From an uncultured Pseudothermotoga sp. (GTDB lineage Bacteria > Thermotogota > Thermotogae > Thermotogales > DSM-5069): a stretch of DNA of 64,000 bases. Within the stretch, counting starts at the first letter, position 1, and the number at the start of each line of letters is the position of its first letter. The position numbers and the translations under genes were made by a program. The notes under the pieces were generated by a model, which was not told the DNA's origin, ran no database searches, and was given only the letters and a program-made list of their open reading frames with translations. Where the stretch lies: the NCBI GenBank assembly GCA_937995655.1, contig CALKJI010000005.1, positions 310,001-374,000 of the forward strand. The letters are read 5' to 3'. Of the stretch, positions 22,386-29,520 are shown one piece after another.

Positions 22386-24516
22386 CTTTCTCCTCCTCGA
22401 ATAGCTCGAAATCAACCTCACCGGAAATCTTGTTGGCGTTGACAACCTTTGCTTTTAATAAATCACCGATCTTGAATATCCGTCCAGATCTCTCGCCAAT
22501 TAGGATATTCTTCTTCTCGTCATAATTATAGTAGTCATTCAAAGTTGATATATGAATTAGACCAGAGATCAATTTTTCTGGGATCTCGACGAACAAACCG
22601 AATCTTGTTACATTAGTAACTACCACATCGAATACTTTCCCCATATACCTACTTATGTACTCGACCTTCTTTATGCTAATCAAGTCCCATTCGGCTTCAT
22701 CTGCCACCCTCTCGCGCTTACTACAATGTTCTGCAATCTTTGGGAGCAGCTGAGAGTAGAGTTCTATCTGATTTGGTGTGAATTTTCCACCTTGCTCCAG
22801 ATACAATTTCAAGAGCCTGTGCACCACTAGATCGGGGTACCTTCTGATCGGCGATGTGAAGTGTGTATATGCGAAAGATGCCAAACCAAAATGTCCAACA
22901 TTAGAAGCAGAATAAATTGCACGTTTCATAGAACGAACGAGTAATTTTTCAACACTTGATCTGAGAGGATGATCTTTAACAGCTTCGAGTACTTTTTGAA
23001 GAACGCTTGAATGGACTGTTTTGGGAAATTTTATTTTCAATCCCAGCGCTTCCACATATTCTCTCAACTGAATCAGTATTTCAGGATCTGGTTGTTCATG
23101 TATTCTATACACAAAAGGTAACCCAGCGTTGTGAAAGACCTCCGCTACAGTTTCGTTAGCCTTTATCATAAATTCCTCTATCAAGACTTCTGCTTCCCCT
23201 CTCTTACGAGGTACTATGTCAACAACATGACCTTTTTCGTCTGTTACTACATCGATCTCTCCGCCTTCTACATCAAGAATTGCACCTCTGCGTCTCCTGT
23301 TTTCCCTAAGAATCTTGGCCAACTCGCGCATCGAATCGAGTGAATGGCATATTCTTTTTCCGATTTGTTTCTGAGCAGATGGATCACCTGAAAAATATTT
23401 ATTTACAATGGTATATGTTAGACGTTTTTTACTTCTTATCACACTTGGTGTTATCTCGTAGTCCAAAGTGTTGCCTTCTTTGTCTAAAATAATTTGGACT
23501 GTGAATGTCAATCTGTCTCTTCCCTCAACTAAACTGCACAGATTATTTGAAAGTTTAAACGGCAACATCGGTATGACTTTGTCCAGCAGGTAGACGCTCG
23601 TACCTCTTGAGAATGCTTCTTTGTCTATCGCGGAATTTTCTTTCACATAGTGGGAAACATCGGCAATATGTACTGACAGTTGATATTTGTTGTTGGAAAG
23701 CTTTCTTATTGAAACTGCATCATCAAAGTCTTTAGCATCTTCACCATCTATAGTGAAAACAATTTGACCGCTGAAATCTTTTCTACCCCTTTTTTCTTCA
23801 TCTAGTACCTGCTCTGGTAAATTTCTTGTCTCGTCTATGACTTCTTGAGGGAATTCTTCTACAAGTCCGTGTTTAGCTATCACGCTTGGAATATCAACTT
23901 TGGGATCATCTACATCACCAAGCACACTTACGATAGATGCTTCAGGGTATCGACCCTGTGATGGCCATTTTGTGATCTTAGCAATAACTTTCTGCCCCGG
24001 TTTTGCACCATTTATGTGCTCCAGTGGAACAAAAAAATCATAAACAATTTTTGAATCGTCCGGTATCACATAAGAGAGAGATCTCTTAAGCTGAAGAACG
24101 CCAACTACCTTATCTATGCGGTGTTCAACAACTTTCAACACCCGTCCAAGTGGTAAATTTCTCCATTTTCCTGTTATTTCAATTAGCACTTTATCATTGT
24201 GAATAGCGCCATTTGTGTTGTCGATGGGTACGGCTATCTCTTTACCATCTTCAATCACAACAAATGCCATATTGCCTCGGCGTGTGAATTCAATGGTACC
24301 TACAAACAAATCCTCGCCGATTTTGCGATATCTACCTCTTGCATCTCTGATTATTACTCCTTGTTTGATGAATTCATTCAGTATGGTCTTAGTTTGCTTT
24401 CTTTGTGTCTTACTCTTTATTCCGAGAACCTTTAGGAGTTGCTTGAATGTTAATTTTGCATTCTCAGCGAGGACTTGTTCAATCTTTGTTTTGAGGTCAA
24501 TGGAAGATTGTGACAC
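22360..24516 (-). CDS. rnr: Ribonuclease R
   Basis: This 718-residue processive 3'-5' exoribonuclease degrades structured RNA. The layout is an N-terminal winged-helix region (1-65), two cold-shock domains (about 70-230), the RNB catalytic domain with TIDGEDAKDFDDAVSI (metal-binding aspartates) and HFTSPIRRYPDLVVHR, and a C-terminal S1 domain (VTRFGLFVEIPEKLISGLIH). GTG 24516 overlaps the upstream GGDEF gene by 20 bases. It shares the run with nrnA, so RNA-decay enzymes are clustered. Confidence 0.96.
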   Translation of the reverse strand: MSQSSIDLKTKIEQVLAENAKLTFKQLLKVLGIKSKTQRKQTKTILNEFIKQGVIIRDARGRYRKIGEDLFVGTIEFTRRGNMAFVVIEDGKEIAVPIDNTNGAIHNDKVLIEITGKWRNLPLGRVLKVVEHRIDKVVGVLQLKRSLSYVIPDDSKIVYDFFVPLEHINGAKPGQKVIAKITKWPSQGRYPEASIVSVLGDVDDPKVDIPSVIAKHGLVEEFPQEVIDETRNLPEQVLDEEKRGRKDFSGQIVFTIDGEDAKDFDDAVSIRKLSNNKYQLSVHIADVSHYVKENSAIDKEAFSRGTSVYLLDKVIPMLPFKLSNNLCSLVEGRDRLTFTVQIILDKEGNTLDYEITPSVIRSKKRLTYTIVNKYFSGDPSAQKQIGKRICHSLDSMRELAKILRENRRRRGAILDVEGGEIDVVTDEKGHVVDIVPRKRGEAEVLIEEFMIKANETVAEVFHNAGLPFVYRIHEQPDPEILIQLREYVEALGLKIKFPKTVHSSVLQKVLEAVKDHPLRSSVEKLLVRSMKRAIYSASNVGHFGLASFAYTHFTSPIRRYPDLVVHRLLKLYLEQGGKFTPNQIELYSQLLPKIAEHCSKRERVADEAEWDLISIKKVEYISRYMGKVFDVVVTNVTRFGLFVEIPEKLISGLIHISTLNDYYNYDEKKNILIGERSGRIFKIGDLLKAKVVNANKISGEVDFELFEEEKDVDKRNSR

Positions 24517-27500
24517 AAGCTTTACCCCTTTCTTTTGACATATATGTAGCTTTATCAGCCAAGGCTATAAGATCCTCTGATTCAATCACTTCGTGCTCTG
24601 GGTAGCCACAAACGCCGAAACTCATTGTCACACGAAAATCAAATGGGTTTGTCTCTATGATCTTATGCAAGATCTTTTCGGCAACTTTGGCAGCACTGTC
24701 TTCTGTTGTGTTGGGAAGTATCAATATGAATTCTTCACCACCATACCTTCCCACTATGTCACTTGTTCTTGTAATGCTTCTGAAAACTGAAGCAATGAAT
24801 TTCAGAACTTCATCGCCAATCCTATGCCCAAAGGTATCATTTATTTTCTTGAAGTCGTCGATATCACACATCACTACTGAAAAATGCCCACCGTATCTTT
24901 TTACCCTCTCAAATTCTTCGTGTAATCGTGTTATAAAGTACCATCGTGTGTACAAACCCGTCAAAGGATCGGTGATGCTCCTATGATAGATTACGATGTT
25001 CTTGAGAGCGTACATGATCACTTCTTGTAAATCCAGGACCATTTTCGTGAGCTCGTAACCCGATGATTCATCAAGATGCAAAGCTTGATTAGCCACGTAC
25101 AGAACAACTTTGAAACCATCATATACCTCTATTTCGCTGCACATTTCAAATGGCGTATAAGAAACCTTCGTCTCTGTTGGCATTTGCTCGACATTGAAAC
25201 CAGCGTATTCCAGGATCTTGCCACGTGAGTCAAGCAACATCAATCCCACTGACGATACTGGTAAAAGATTCATTATTTTGGAGACGAGGAACTCCATGGT
25301 TGTATAGATTTCGTCTTGTGGATCTGTGACCTTGAGAACATCCAAAAGATGCTGGACAAAAACTGAGTTCTTGATGGTTTTCTCTATTTGTTCCTGTATC
25401 GATTTTAAAAATTGCTGTGAAGATTCTTCAATTCTTAATAGTGATTCATTAAAGATTCTGAACACACTTGTTTCTGGGGATAGATTCATCTTCTTCTCTA
25501 ACCAAACTGCTGCATTTGTAAGCGATTTGGTCCTATAAATTGAAATGGCTTTCTCTGCGTAGTTGATTGCCAACGGGATGGCACCGATCGCTTTATAGCC
25601 AATTGCAACTCCTTCATAGACCTGTGCAAGAGACAAGAAAGTCCCACTCTTTATAGCGTCTGTTTCAAGCTGCTTCGCAAACTTGAGAAAACCTTTCCTG
25701 TCGATCTTGATCAATCTTTCTGCGAATATCTGACATGCTTCTTCAGACCAGTATGGGGTATCTTTTCTGACAAACTTCTGCCAGGCATCTAAAAACTCCA
25801 TATCATTTTGAGCCAAAAACAAATCTCTGAAAGGTACAAAATTTGGGTTATTGATGGCAGGATTTTCAATATTTTCTGCTATTATTTGCCTTGCTCTTTC
25901 TATATCTGCTGACAGGGCATAGGCACAGGCCATTCCTCTGAGTGCCCTTTCTTCGATGCCAAGGTACCTTTCTATTGAAAGTTCACGATTATAGTCTTCC
26001 AATGCCTCGTCCAATTCACGATTATACATATGGAAATTTGCCTCTATGAAGTGACTGTATGCCTCAAGCTGGATATTCCCAGTTATGCTGGTGAGTTGCC
26101 TTAGTCTTGCAATATCTTGAAACATCTTATGGACATCGCCTCTATACAAACTGGTCCAAATCATGTTGGACAATCCAACCATTGCTAATCCGTCTGATCC
26201 TATTCTGTGGGCAATCTCCACGACACTTTCAAACAATCTCTTCGATTCTGAATCAGCAGCAAGCCTTGTGCCAAGTTCATTAAGAACTGCCGCTAGAACA
26301 TCCAGGAAACCTTCACTCTGTGCGATCTGTTTGGCTTGATTCAAAAGCTCTAAGTTGCTCATACTCGATCTTTGAGTATTTTGTGCCATTAGCAATAGTG
26401 TTAATGATCTTAATCTTCTGTGCAAACTCGTGTCTTTGAGCCTTGCAAGCAAGATTTCAACTTTGTTGAGTAATTTTTCAGGTAATCTTTCCCCTGAAAG
26501 TAGCATACGCTTCATTCTGCAACACAATTTCAGGAGCTTACTGTAATCTGTTTTTGATTCAAAGAGGTTCTCTTTTTCCATCTCTTTGGCAAGATTTGCC
26601 TTTGACGCGTATACTAAAGCGCTGTACCTAAGAAAATCATATTTCGTACTCAAAGCGAGTGCATATCTTTCCAAGGCATTGGAGTCTTGTTTGATTTGCA
26701 GTGCTCTAAGTTTCAAACTGTTTAATGCATAGCTTTCTCTACCTTCCAAAAGTTTCTCCACTTCTTCTAACAAAGATATAGCCACTGAGATATCATGGTA
26801 ACTTGCGAGTTCTTTCCTGGCAGTCAAAAGGTAGAGTGCAATTGCAGAGGTTTTTCTACCAAGCATCTGTAAATGCCAAGCTCTCTTTGCGGGGTCTTGA
26901 ATCTTACTTGCCAATCTATCGTGTAATTCTATTCTTTTCTGTGGTTCTATTTGCGAATAAAGAGATCGCCACGCATCGAAGATTATGAATCTATACTTTC
27001 CTTCTTCCCAATAAACCAATCCGTTGTCGATTAGCTGGGCCAGTTTTGCGTTGACCACAGAAATATCTAGCGAGCTAACCAAACTGAGATACTCGAGCTC
27101 TTTTAATCCAAATCTCTCCCCCAATATGGCTATGAGATGGGCACCCGAGTCAATCAGATTCCCCAGTGATAACTGCAGAATCTGTTTAAAATCTGTTCTC
27201 TTAAGTATCTCTTGGCTAACCATCAATCCATTTTTTTCGACCTTTAAGGCATTGTTTTTTACCAAAAGCCGGGCAAGTTCAACTACTTGTCCAGGCAAAC
27301 CATGACTAACAGTATGAATCCATCTGCCAAAATCTTCAACATCGTTCTTGCTGATCATGAACATTACCGATATCATTTCGATTGTTTTATCCAGGTTAAA
27401 AGGTTCGAGTTCAATGAGCAAGTCATAAGAAAGAGGAATATTTTTCTGGAATGACGCCAAGATGAAAGTGTGTCCGGCAGAATAACTGTAATTTTGGAGT

Positions 27501-28552
27501 TGTTCAACGGTTGCTTTGAGTGATAGATCCATTTCATGAACATCATCGACGATTATCACAACAGAGGTAAGATTATTTAGAATCTTTGCGACTCTGAGAA
27601 CGACCTCAGAGGAATTCATATGGCCAGACAGTGCAACTTTTTCGATCCATTCCTTGTCTTGTGCGTCCAAGTTGGAAAGTACTCTATCATCTACGAACTG
27701 AAGAATCCCAATAACGAAGTTTTGTAGATCTGTTGCCCATATCACTGGATAACCCTCATTCCTAAGTTGATCAGATATAGAACCCAGAAGAGTAGTTTTT
27801 CCGATTCTCTGAGGTCCATAGATGAAGATTGTTTTCATACCCCTTTGGTTGTTTTTCACAATCTCTAATATTTTGTTCTCTTCGGATCTATGGATTGTTG
27901 CTAGACGCAATCCCATTAAACCAGCTGATGATGCAGTTTCATTTAATAGATAAACAGCCGCAGGAAGATGAGTTTTTCTCTCCCTTGGATCTTCTTTGAT
28001 GAAGTTGGAAACCAGTTGCTTTATTTCGTGTGTATCGCTCAAGGAATCTATGAGTTTTCCAAATACATAAACAGTCGAGGCAACGGAGGCTGCATGACCT
28101 TTTTGGAATTCGAGTGCGACGAAAACATACTTGCCCTCTGGTAATCGGTCTGGGTTGACCCAACAAGGTGGGAGCATGAAGAAGTTCTCGGCTTTGAGAA
28201 AATCTTCAACTGAAATAACGGGTATGGCAATTCCTCTGTGTACAAGTTCTCTCAGTAAGTTTAGCAAAAAGAGCACAAAATTTCCTCTTTCTATCTTGTC
28301 CTCAACGTTAACTGGCTTGCCTTCAAGATACGGAAAGTAAATCCTCGGTACATCTCTCAAATCATATGTCTCAGGTACTAAGATCCCAGGATGTCTTATG
28401 CGAGCGAAGGAAGCCAACAATTTAGTCAGTTCTTGTCTTTTGCTGCCAATCGCCTCGGGTTTTATCACGCGCAATCTCATATAGACATTTTCATCGGCAA
28501 CTAAATGTTCATCACCAATATATGTTTCTCTGAGAAACTTGACTAACTTCAC
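24497..28552 (-). CDS. Giant signalling protein: kinase-like, STAND ATPase, TPR-like repeats, GAF, GGDEF
   Basis: This 1351-residue protein ends in a diguanylate cyclase. Residues 1-205 weakly resemble a protein kinase fold (ARIRHPGILVPETY, VYVFGKLIDSL, FIKEDPRERKT), but the catalytic Lys, HRD and DFG motifs are not seen, so it is at most a pseudokinase. A STAND/AAA-type ATPase follows, with Walker A GPQRIGKTT (246-254) and Walker B VVIIVDD (331-337). Helical TPR-like repeats fill about 560-1010, then a GAF-like sensor (about 1050-1175) and a GGDEF domain (1192-1351) with GGEEF at 1271-1275 and an inhibitory-site RTSD at 1262-1265. GTG 28552 overlaps the nrnA TGA (GTGA). The longer frame to 28699 lies inside nrnA. 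Confidence 0.85.
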   Translation of the reverse strand: MKLVKFLRETYIGDEHLVADENVYMRLRVIKPEAIGSKRQELTKLLASFARIRHPGILVPETYDLRDVPRIYFPYLEGKPVNVEDKIERGNFVLFLLNLLRELVHRGIAIPVISVEDFLKAENFFMLPPCWVNPDRLPEGKYVFVALEFQKGHAASVASTVYVFGKLIDSLSDTHEIKQLVSNFIKEDPRERKTHLPAAVYLLNETASSAGLMGLRLATIHRSEENKILEIVKNNQRGMKTIFIYGPQRIGKTTLLGSISDQLRNEGYPVIWATDLQNFVIGILQFVDDRVLSNLDAQDKEWIEKVALSGHMNSSEVVLRVAKILNNLTSVVIIVDDVHEMDLSLKATVEQLQNYSYSAGHTFILASFQKNIPLSYDLLIELEPFNLDKTIEMISVMFMISKNDVEDFGRWIHTVSHGLPGQVVELARLLVKNNALKVEKNGLMVSQEILKRTDFKQILQLSLGNLIDSGAHLIAILGERFGLKELEYLSLVSSLDISVVNAKLAQLIDNGLVYWEEGKYRFIIFDAWRSLYSQIEPQKRIELHDRLASKIQDPAKRAWHLQMLGRKTSAIALYLLTARKELASYHDISVAISLLEEVEKLLEGRESYALNSLKLRALQIKQDSNALERYALALSTKYDFLRYSALVYASKANLAKEMEKENLFESKTDYSKLLKLCCRMKRMLLSGERLPEKLLNKVEILLARLKDTSLHRRLRSLTLLLMAQNTQRSSMSNLELLNQAKQIAQSEGFLDVLAAVLNELGTRLAADSESKRLFESVVEIAHRIGSDGLAMVGLSNMIWTSLYRGDVHKMFQDIARLRQLTSITGNIQLEAYSHFIEANFHMYNRELDEALEDYNRELSIERYLGIEERALRGMACAYALSADIERARQIIAENIENPAINNPNFVPFRDLFLAQNDMEFLDAWQKFVRKDTPYWSEEACQIFAERLIKIDRKGFLKFAKQLETDAIKSGTFLSLAQVYEGVAIGYKAIGAIPLAINYAEKAISIYRTKSLTNAAVWLEKKMNLSPETSVFRIFNESLLRIEESSQQFLKSIQEQIEKTIKNSVFVQHLLDVLKVTDPQDEIYTTMEFLVSKIMNLLPVSSVGLMLLDSRGKILEYAGFNVEQMPTETKVSYTPFEMCSEIEVYDGFKVVLYVANQALHLDESSGYELTKMVLDLQEVIMYALKNIVIYHRSITDPLTGLYTRWYFITRLHEEFERVKRYGGHFSVVMCDIDDFKKINDTFGHRIGDEVLKFIASVFRSITRTSDIVGRYGGEEFILILPNTTEDSAAKVAEKILHKIIETNPFDFRVTMSFGVCGYPEHEVIESEDLIALADKATYMSKERGKACVTIFH

Positions 28553-29520
28553 TTGACTCCCCCCTGTAAGAAATCTTTTGTTAGGCTCACAACTTCCTTC
28601 ATTACATCTTCGAGTTCTGCATCTTTGAAAGAGCAACCAGCGGCTCTCGAATGGCCTCCGCCCCCTAAAATGGAAGCCACTCTGCTCACATCGAACCAAT
28701 TTTTTGATCTAAAACTGACGTGTATTTCATTTTTCGGGAACTCTGTAAACAGAATCGCTACCTCGACATCTTTCAACGCTCTCATTTCACTCACAAATCC
28801 TGTGCTGTCGTCCTCAACGCAGTTGTTTTCAAGGTAATCTTCGTAACTCAACCACGAATAAACCAAAGAGTCCTCTAAAATCATATGATTAATCATGGTA
28901 CAGTATAGTTTCATTTGTTCAGGTCTTTTGTTTTCAAGGATTGTAGTAGCAATAAAGTATGGTTTAGCACCAAACCGTACAAGTTCAGCTGCATCCTTAA
29001 AAAGGCGCTCATCTGTGTTTGAAAATCTGAAAAAACCTGAATCGGTTGCCATACCCATTAAATTCGTCGTTGCAAGTTCAGAGTCATATGTAATGCCTAG
29101 CACCTTATTGAGAGTATAAACCATCTGCGCAGTAGCGGCATACGATGTGTCAACCCAATTTATATCACCAAAAAGTGTATTTGTTGCGTGATGGTCTATA
29201 ACAATTGTTCTATGATTTGAAAGCATTGGCTCGAAGCGGCCAACTCTATCTGGTGAAGAACTATCCAAGACAATGATCAATTGGGGGGTAAAATCCGTTA
29301 GTTCTTCGTATGATCTTATTTCATTTACTCCTGCAAAAACCTTGTAGTAATCTGGTATTTTATAGTCTATCGATCCGAAACAATTCTTACCAAGCTGCTT
29401 CAAGCTCAGAGTTAACGAAGCAACACTACTTATATCATCACCGTCAGGCATAATATGCCCCACTATTAATATGTCTTGTAAATCAATTATCTGGGAAACT
29501 ATCTTTGCAATTTCATTCAT
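28549..29520 (-). CDS. nrnA: DHH-family oligoribonuclease / pAp phosphatase (NrnA-like)
   Basis: This 323-residue DHH-DHHA1 phosphoesterase hydrolyses short oligoribonucleotides and related small nucleotides (pAp, pApA, possibly pGpG) with manganese. The metal-binding motifs are GHIMPDGDDISS, VLDSSSPDRVG and VIDHHATN, and the DHHA1 end carries GGGGHSRAAG. ATG 29520 directly follows the flavin-reductase stop. The downstream GGDEF gene begins within its stop codon, coupling a nucleotide-degrading enzyme to a cyclic-di-GMP synthase. Confidence 0.92.
   Translation of the reverse strand: MNEIAKIVSQIIDLQDILIVGHIMPDGDDISSVASLTLSLKQLGKNCFGSIDYKIPDYYKVFAGVNEIRSYEELTDFTPQLIIVLDSSSPDRVGRFEPMLSNHRTIVIDHHATNTLFGDINWVDTSYAATAQMVYTLNKVLGITYDSELATTNLMGMATDSGFFRFSNTDERLFKDAAELVRFGAKPYFIATTILENKRPEQMKLYCTMINHMILEDSLVYSWLSYEDYLENNCVEDDSTGFVSEMRALKDVEVAILFTEFPKNEIHVSFRSKNWFDVSRVASILGGGGHSRAAGCSFKDAELEDVMKEVVSLTKDFLQGGVK

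Follow-up and report, generated by a model that had tools for sequence, protein, structure and literature searches.

A predicted pseudokinase-STAND NTPase-diguanylate cyclase conserved in Thermotogota and, in one order, encoded beside a DHH/DHHA1 phosphodiesterase

Introduction

Bacterial sensors in which a Ser/Thr kinase is followed by a STAND ATPase, TPR repeats, a GAF domain and a histidine kinase are known as "trifunctional" kinase/ATP-binding/histidine kinase proteins. The STAND NTPases with TPR sensors, as in PDB entry 6mfv and proteins of the MalT type, likewise combine a P-loop switch with a TPR-like array. The characterised thermophilic diguanylate cyclase of Thermotoga maritima, TM1788 (tDGC), is a protein of 248 aa described as stand-alone, without STAND or kinase parts (PMC4215984). 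In other cyclases, control of the GGDEF dimer by linker helices is established (PMC8041772). DHH/DHHA1 enzymes of the NrnA type hydrolyse pGpG to GMP, and Bacillus subtilis without nrnA and nrnB has raised cyclic-di-GMP (PMC6256023).

Here we report on a gene for a large GGDEF protein in a 64,000-nucleotide stretch of DNA from an uncultured Pseudothermotoga sp. (referred to as the window), and on its relatives among 103 Thermotogota genomes.

Results

The gene has the extent given in the initial annotation, which did not state the strand; it lies on the minus strand (Table 1). Its GTG start and the stop of the upstream gene overlap in the shared letters GTGA, and a G-rich ribosome-binding stretch directly precedes the GTG. 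The order of modules in the product is pseudokinase head, STAND-type P-loop ATPase, TPR-like array, small domain of GAF topology, helical linker and GGDEF domain.

Table 1. Features of the cyclase gene, its neighbour and related loci (window positions unless a locus is named).
Feature	Position	Strand	Basis or remark
Whole cyclase gene	24497..28552	minus	1351 aa, GTG start
Predicted pseudokinase head, residues 1-205	27938..28552	minus	AlphaFold (AF2), Foldseek, hhalign
PVISVEDF, residues 111-118, at the HRDxKPxN position	28199..28222	minus	Alignment
APE-equivalent, residues 146-148	28109..28117	minus	Alignment; ALE here, APE in most relatives
STAND-type NTPase, about residues 213-450	27203..27916	minus	Pfam ATPase_2, AAA_16, NB-ARC
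Walker A GPQRIGKT, residues 246-253	27794..27817	minus	Intact in 33/34 aligned sequences
Walker B region VVIIVDD, residues 331-337	27542..27562	minus	Kept in 34/34 aligned sequences
TPR-like helical repeat array, about residues 560-1010	25523..26875	minus	AF2, Foldseek, TPR_12 in relatives
Coiled helix and small alpha/beta domain of GAF-like topology, about residues 1040-1161	25070..25435	minus	AF2
Long linker helix into GGDEF, residues 1162-1194	24971..25069	minus	AF2
GGDEF (diguanylate cyclase) domain, residues 1193-1344	24521..24976	minus	Pfam 1.3e-41, TIGR00254 3.9e-45
I-site RTSD, residues 1262-1265, five residues before GGEEF	24758..24769	minus	Sequence
GGEEF, residues 1271-1275	24728..24742	minus	Intact in 31/31 sequences reaching that far
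DHH/DHHA1 phosphodiesterase, co-directional upstream gene	28549..29520	minus	PDB 5o1u, E 7e-108; Pfam DHH and DHHA1
Purine nucleoside phosphorylase (PNP), PNP-phosphodiesterase-cyclase cluster	L148:4258-5067, L145:4146-5003 and equivalents		
Tandem second cyclases	L010:2245-5967, L152:4051-7890, L153:4058-7828		P-loop lost, GGEEF intact

A scan of the whole protein gave no match for residues 1-205 in Pfam or NCBIfam, so that the kinase assignment of the head rests on structural and profile-profile evidence. The AF2 model of residues 1-212, built like our other AF2 models from five sequences only, has its strands and helices in the order typical of kinases (pTM 0.77, pLDDT 76.5). Foldseek with this model returned 1777 PDB matches at E <= 0.001, the best 50 of which were all protein kinases or pseudokinases, with E to 1.3e-8 and query TM-scores up to 0.69. 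In hhalign comparisons the head profile matched a profile of 5 Thermotogota kinases at E 2.2e-5, in the C-lobe only, and one of 18 Thermotogota kinases at E 1.6e-4 in an alignment spanning 150 columns, while six other segments of the cyclase, used as controls, gave E of at least 0.08 against the kinase profiles. A sequence-profile search of the PDB with the head stayed below significance (best E 0.043), its 22 matches all being kinases. The family motifs APE, ST-YVFGK and E-D-P-x-x-R align with the APE, alpha-F and subdomain XI motifs of kinases. The initial annotation had described the first 205 residues as an inactive kinase-like region, proposing a kinase profile search as a check and naming the absence of a kinase fold as grounds for giving the idea up; model and Foldseek matches indicate a bilobal kinase fold, the profile comparisons support it, and the catalytic motifs are gone.

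The head lacks the glycine loop, HRD and DFG of active kinases and has R at the strand-3 Lys position. HRD, the catalytic-loop Lys, DFG and the glycine-rich loop are missing from the head of every aligned relative, and PVISVEDF is without the catalytic Asp and Lys, its conserved D117 lying near the Asn position. Kinases of unorthodox type with unusual motifs exist, and a head that uses the basic strand-3 residue together with D117 as an active kinase or nucleotidyl transferase, modifying a partner or itself, would agree with the K or R at position 28 of the aligned relatives (R here) and with a D117 that is invariant or nearly so; the loss of HRD, the catalytic-loop Lys, DFG and the glycine-rich loop in all of them nevertheless makes such activity very unlikely. 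That the head is a decaying, functionless relic on a working STAND-cyclase is in our view very unlikely as well. Some related groups do have shortened or very diverged heads, but the head is retained phylum-wide, Y11, D117, P129, S159 and R192 are invariant in 19 aligned heads, and constraint is about equal to that on the other non-catalytic domains. Compared with the nearest relative, dN/dS is about 0.09 for the head and 0.08 for the ATPase domain, rough values since dS is high, and these indicate comparable purifying selection. Models and alignments together characterise the head as a conserved, predicted pseudokinase with structural but not catalytic kinase motifs, which now probably serves in docking or nucleotide sensing and no longer in catalysis. 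The Pkinase family has no match in the window's genome and is matched in 27 of the 103 Thermotogota genomes.

The ATPase domain was recognised by Pfam as ATPase_2 (residues 226-354, 6e-10), AAA_16 (3e-7) and NB-ARC (6e-4), while the scores of the query with the nSTAND3 and nSTAND_NTPase5 models fell below their cut-offs. Walker A, a Walker B with DD, a downstream GxP (here a GLP-type STAND motif) and fusion to repeats are all present, and the Walker motifs that had been noticed earlier belong to a STAND-like ATPase.

For the long helical repeat region of the initial annotation, AF2 predicts tandem helical hairpins of TPR type. In the PDB this array resembled LGN best, with Rap, NprR and the STAND-TPR protein 6mfv further down the Foldseek matches. 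By sequence the TPR signal is marginal in the query (Pfam) and stronger in relatives, TPR_12 being found in 9 of 23. In the model of residues 400-1195 a helix and then a small alpha/beta domain come after the array, and a long helix leads on to GGDEF; the relative placement of these parts is unreliable, since the overall pTM is 0.47. The small domain had been called GAF-like, and its predicted topology (H-EE-E-EE-H) agrees, but sequence comparison gave it no match: Pfam showed no GAF in the query or among the 25 of 45 families listed for 23 family members, and a profile search of the segment found nothing in the PDB. The comparison with GAF profiles was uninformative, as a GGDEF control segment scored equal to the GAF segment.

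The C-terminal domain has both the GGEEF and the RxxD inhibitory site (RTSD) described for it. The GG[DE]EF motif of diguanylate cyclases and its surrounding conserved positions are in place, and judged by sequence the domain is apparently competent. It might instead serve mainly as a receptor for GTP or cyclic-di-GMP in a protein that is a scaffold and no cyclase in the cell; the very large size of the protein and the redundancy possible with 14 GGDEF matches in the genome would suit this. We nevertheless hold it to be quite improbable, since GGEEF is intact in 31/31 sequences, the I-site is mostly kept among relatives, and many positions along the domain are invariant in 23 aligned relatives. 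As for a GGDEF of the Hypr (cGAMP) type, the conserved D1247 in GHxxGD, which we take to be the position that separates Hypr from ordinary GGDEF domains, suggests that the domain uses GTP in the ordinary way.

A search with residues 1-1180 found relatives in 58 of the 103 Thermotogota genomes (22 of 38 genera), mostly at full length and at identities from 75% to about 21%, and usually as one cyclase gene per genome. The combination of a dead head with an intact P-loop and GGEEF is conserved across them. We found no relatives on plasmids. In some genera of family f2, which includes a Fervidobacterium genome, a tandem second cyclase has lost the P-loop and altered the I-site; GGEEF is retained in these paralogues, so the GGDEF domain might work without the ATPase. 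In one genus of family f3 the cyclase gene has probably been lost, leaving a short remnant that contains an internal TGA (G098:C23:829-1089). One 1065-aa frame with a weak kinase match (genome G006) proved on inspection to be no STAND-cyclase. Outside Thermotogota the distribution represents a sample, drawn from one collection scan with a single protein and from 12 genomes reached via its loci.

The gene directly upstream, a conserved partner that the initial annotation did not mention, encodes the orthologue of T. maritima TM1595 (TmPDE). In the work of Drexler et al. 2017 this enzyme reportedly favours linear dinucleotides, pGpG among them. The phosphodiesterase gene is the next one upstream of the cyclase or its tandem copy in 39/39 carriers of the window's order (11 of family f1, 20 of f2 and 8 of f3, the G098 remnant left out), as scored by comparing the positions of cyclase and phosphodiesterase matches (loci L139-L155), and this holds at cyclase identities down to about 26%. 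Among cyclase carriers of other families no such adjacency was seen, and any coupling is therefore lineage-specific. In family f6 the phosphodiesterase is within a frame of about 680-690 aa (G003:C9:3125-4069, G004:C7:400-1338) and is probably fused to another domain.

The adjacency may reflect only shared descent and co-transcription with genes of RNA or purine turnover, with no coupling to cyclic-di-GMP. The phosphodiesterase is a core gene (102/103 Thermotogota genomes); in the window the cyclase sits between it and RNase R, and a purine nucleoside phosphorylase gene lies just upstream of it in f2, f3 and one f1 genus. This explanation is quite possible without being likely, for the two genes have stayed together in f1, f2 and f3 although their other neighbours, apart from the phosphorylase, mostly differ between these families. 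We infer that cyclase and phosphodiesterase may be functionally coupled. The window's genome has 14 GGDEF, 13 HD-GYP, 0 EAL and 1 PilZ matches, a setting in which a dedicated pGpG hydrolase makes sense.

Discussion

The reading that we favour, and regard as fairly probable, is that the protein is a soluble, assembly-driven diguanylate cyclase gated by ATP through its STAND switch, with the pseudokinase as a ligand or docking head. Pseudokinase and TPR array would bind a ligand or partner protein, which would free the NTPase to exchange ADP for ATP; ATP binding would then let the NTPase self-associate, and the linker helices would pair two GTP-loaded GGDEF domains in active register for synthesis of cyclic-di-GMP; product feedback would come from the I-site. 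HD-GYP enzymes would degrade the messenger and the neighbouring DHH phosphodiesterase would clear pGpG, so that the gene pair would cover synthesis and final clearance. A more far-reaching version, in which the pseudokinase is a ligand or nucleotide sensor gating cyclic-di-GMP through ATP-driven STAND assembly, co-expressed with the enzyme that removes pGpG, and in which one conserved operon of thermophiles ties the status of purine and RNA breakdown to the messenger, is rather doubtful.

The conserved pair suggests a route for pGpG disposal in Thermotogota, given that HD-GYP enzymes are present in the window's genome and EAL enzymes are absent from it. Bacterial pseudokinases have been little studied, and a STAND switch with an easily assayed cyclic-di-GMP output would allow the readout of STAND assembly to be tested directly, and would also show what a pseudokinase head adds to such a switch. 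The tendency of thermophile proteins to be stable would be an advantage here.

The initial annotation had called the design unusual, which is only partly right. Searches of the open-access literature brought up neither a diguanylate cyclase of the STAND or pseudokinase kind nor a described pseudokinase that controls a cyclic-dinucleotide cyclase; the architecture is, however, common in Thermotogota and occurs also in Ca. Mcinerneyibacterium, and the idea that it is unique to the window's organism was dropped. It is apparently an undescribed, phylum-wide variant of a known architecture. TM1788 shares with the cyclase the phylum and a GGDEF domain with I-site feedback, while TmPDE (PDB 5o1u) is comparable to the adjacent gene and hence to a putative partner, not to the cyclase itself. 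From 6mfv and the MalT type, which have the same joining of P-loop switch and TPR-like array, the protein differs in its added pseudokinase head and cyclase output. The trifunctional kinase sensors have kinase, P-loop STAND ATPase, helical repeats, GAF-like domain and C-terminal output in the same order; here, in contrast, a GGDEF domain replaces the histidine kinase as output, the kinase head is catalytically dead, and there is usually a single gene per genome, conserved through the phylum. Four large kinase(-like)-NTPase-like-TPR-GGDEF proteins of Ca. Mcinerneyibacterium aminivorans (L212-L215) also have the module order of the cyclase, but outside GGDEF their sequences match the Thermotogota family weakly or not at all. 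Their kinase heads are at differing stages of decay (Pkinase above cut-off in two), all four are without a Walker A, and three have TPR-type repeats by Pfam, so that the decay of kinase-NTPase-TPR-GGDEF modules seems to have taken opposite courses in the two lineages.
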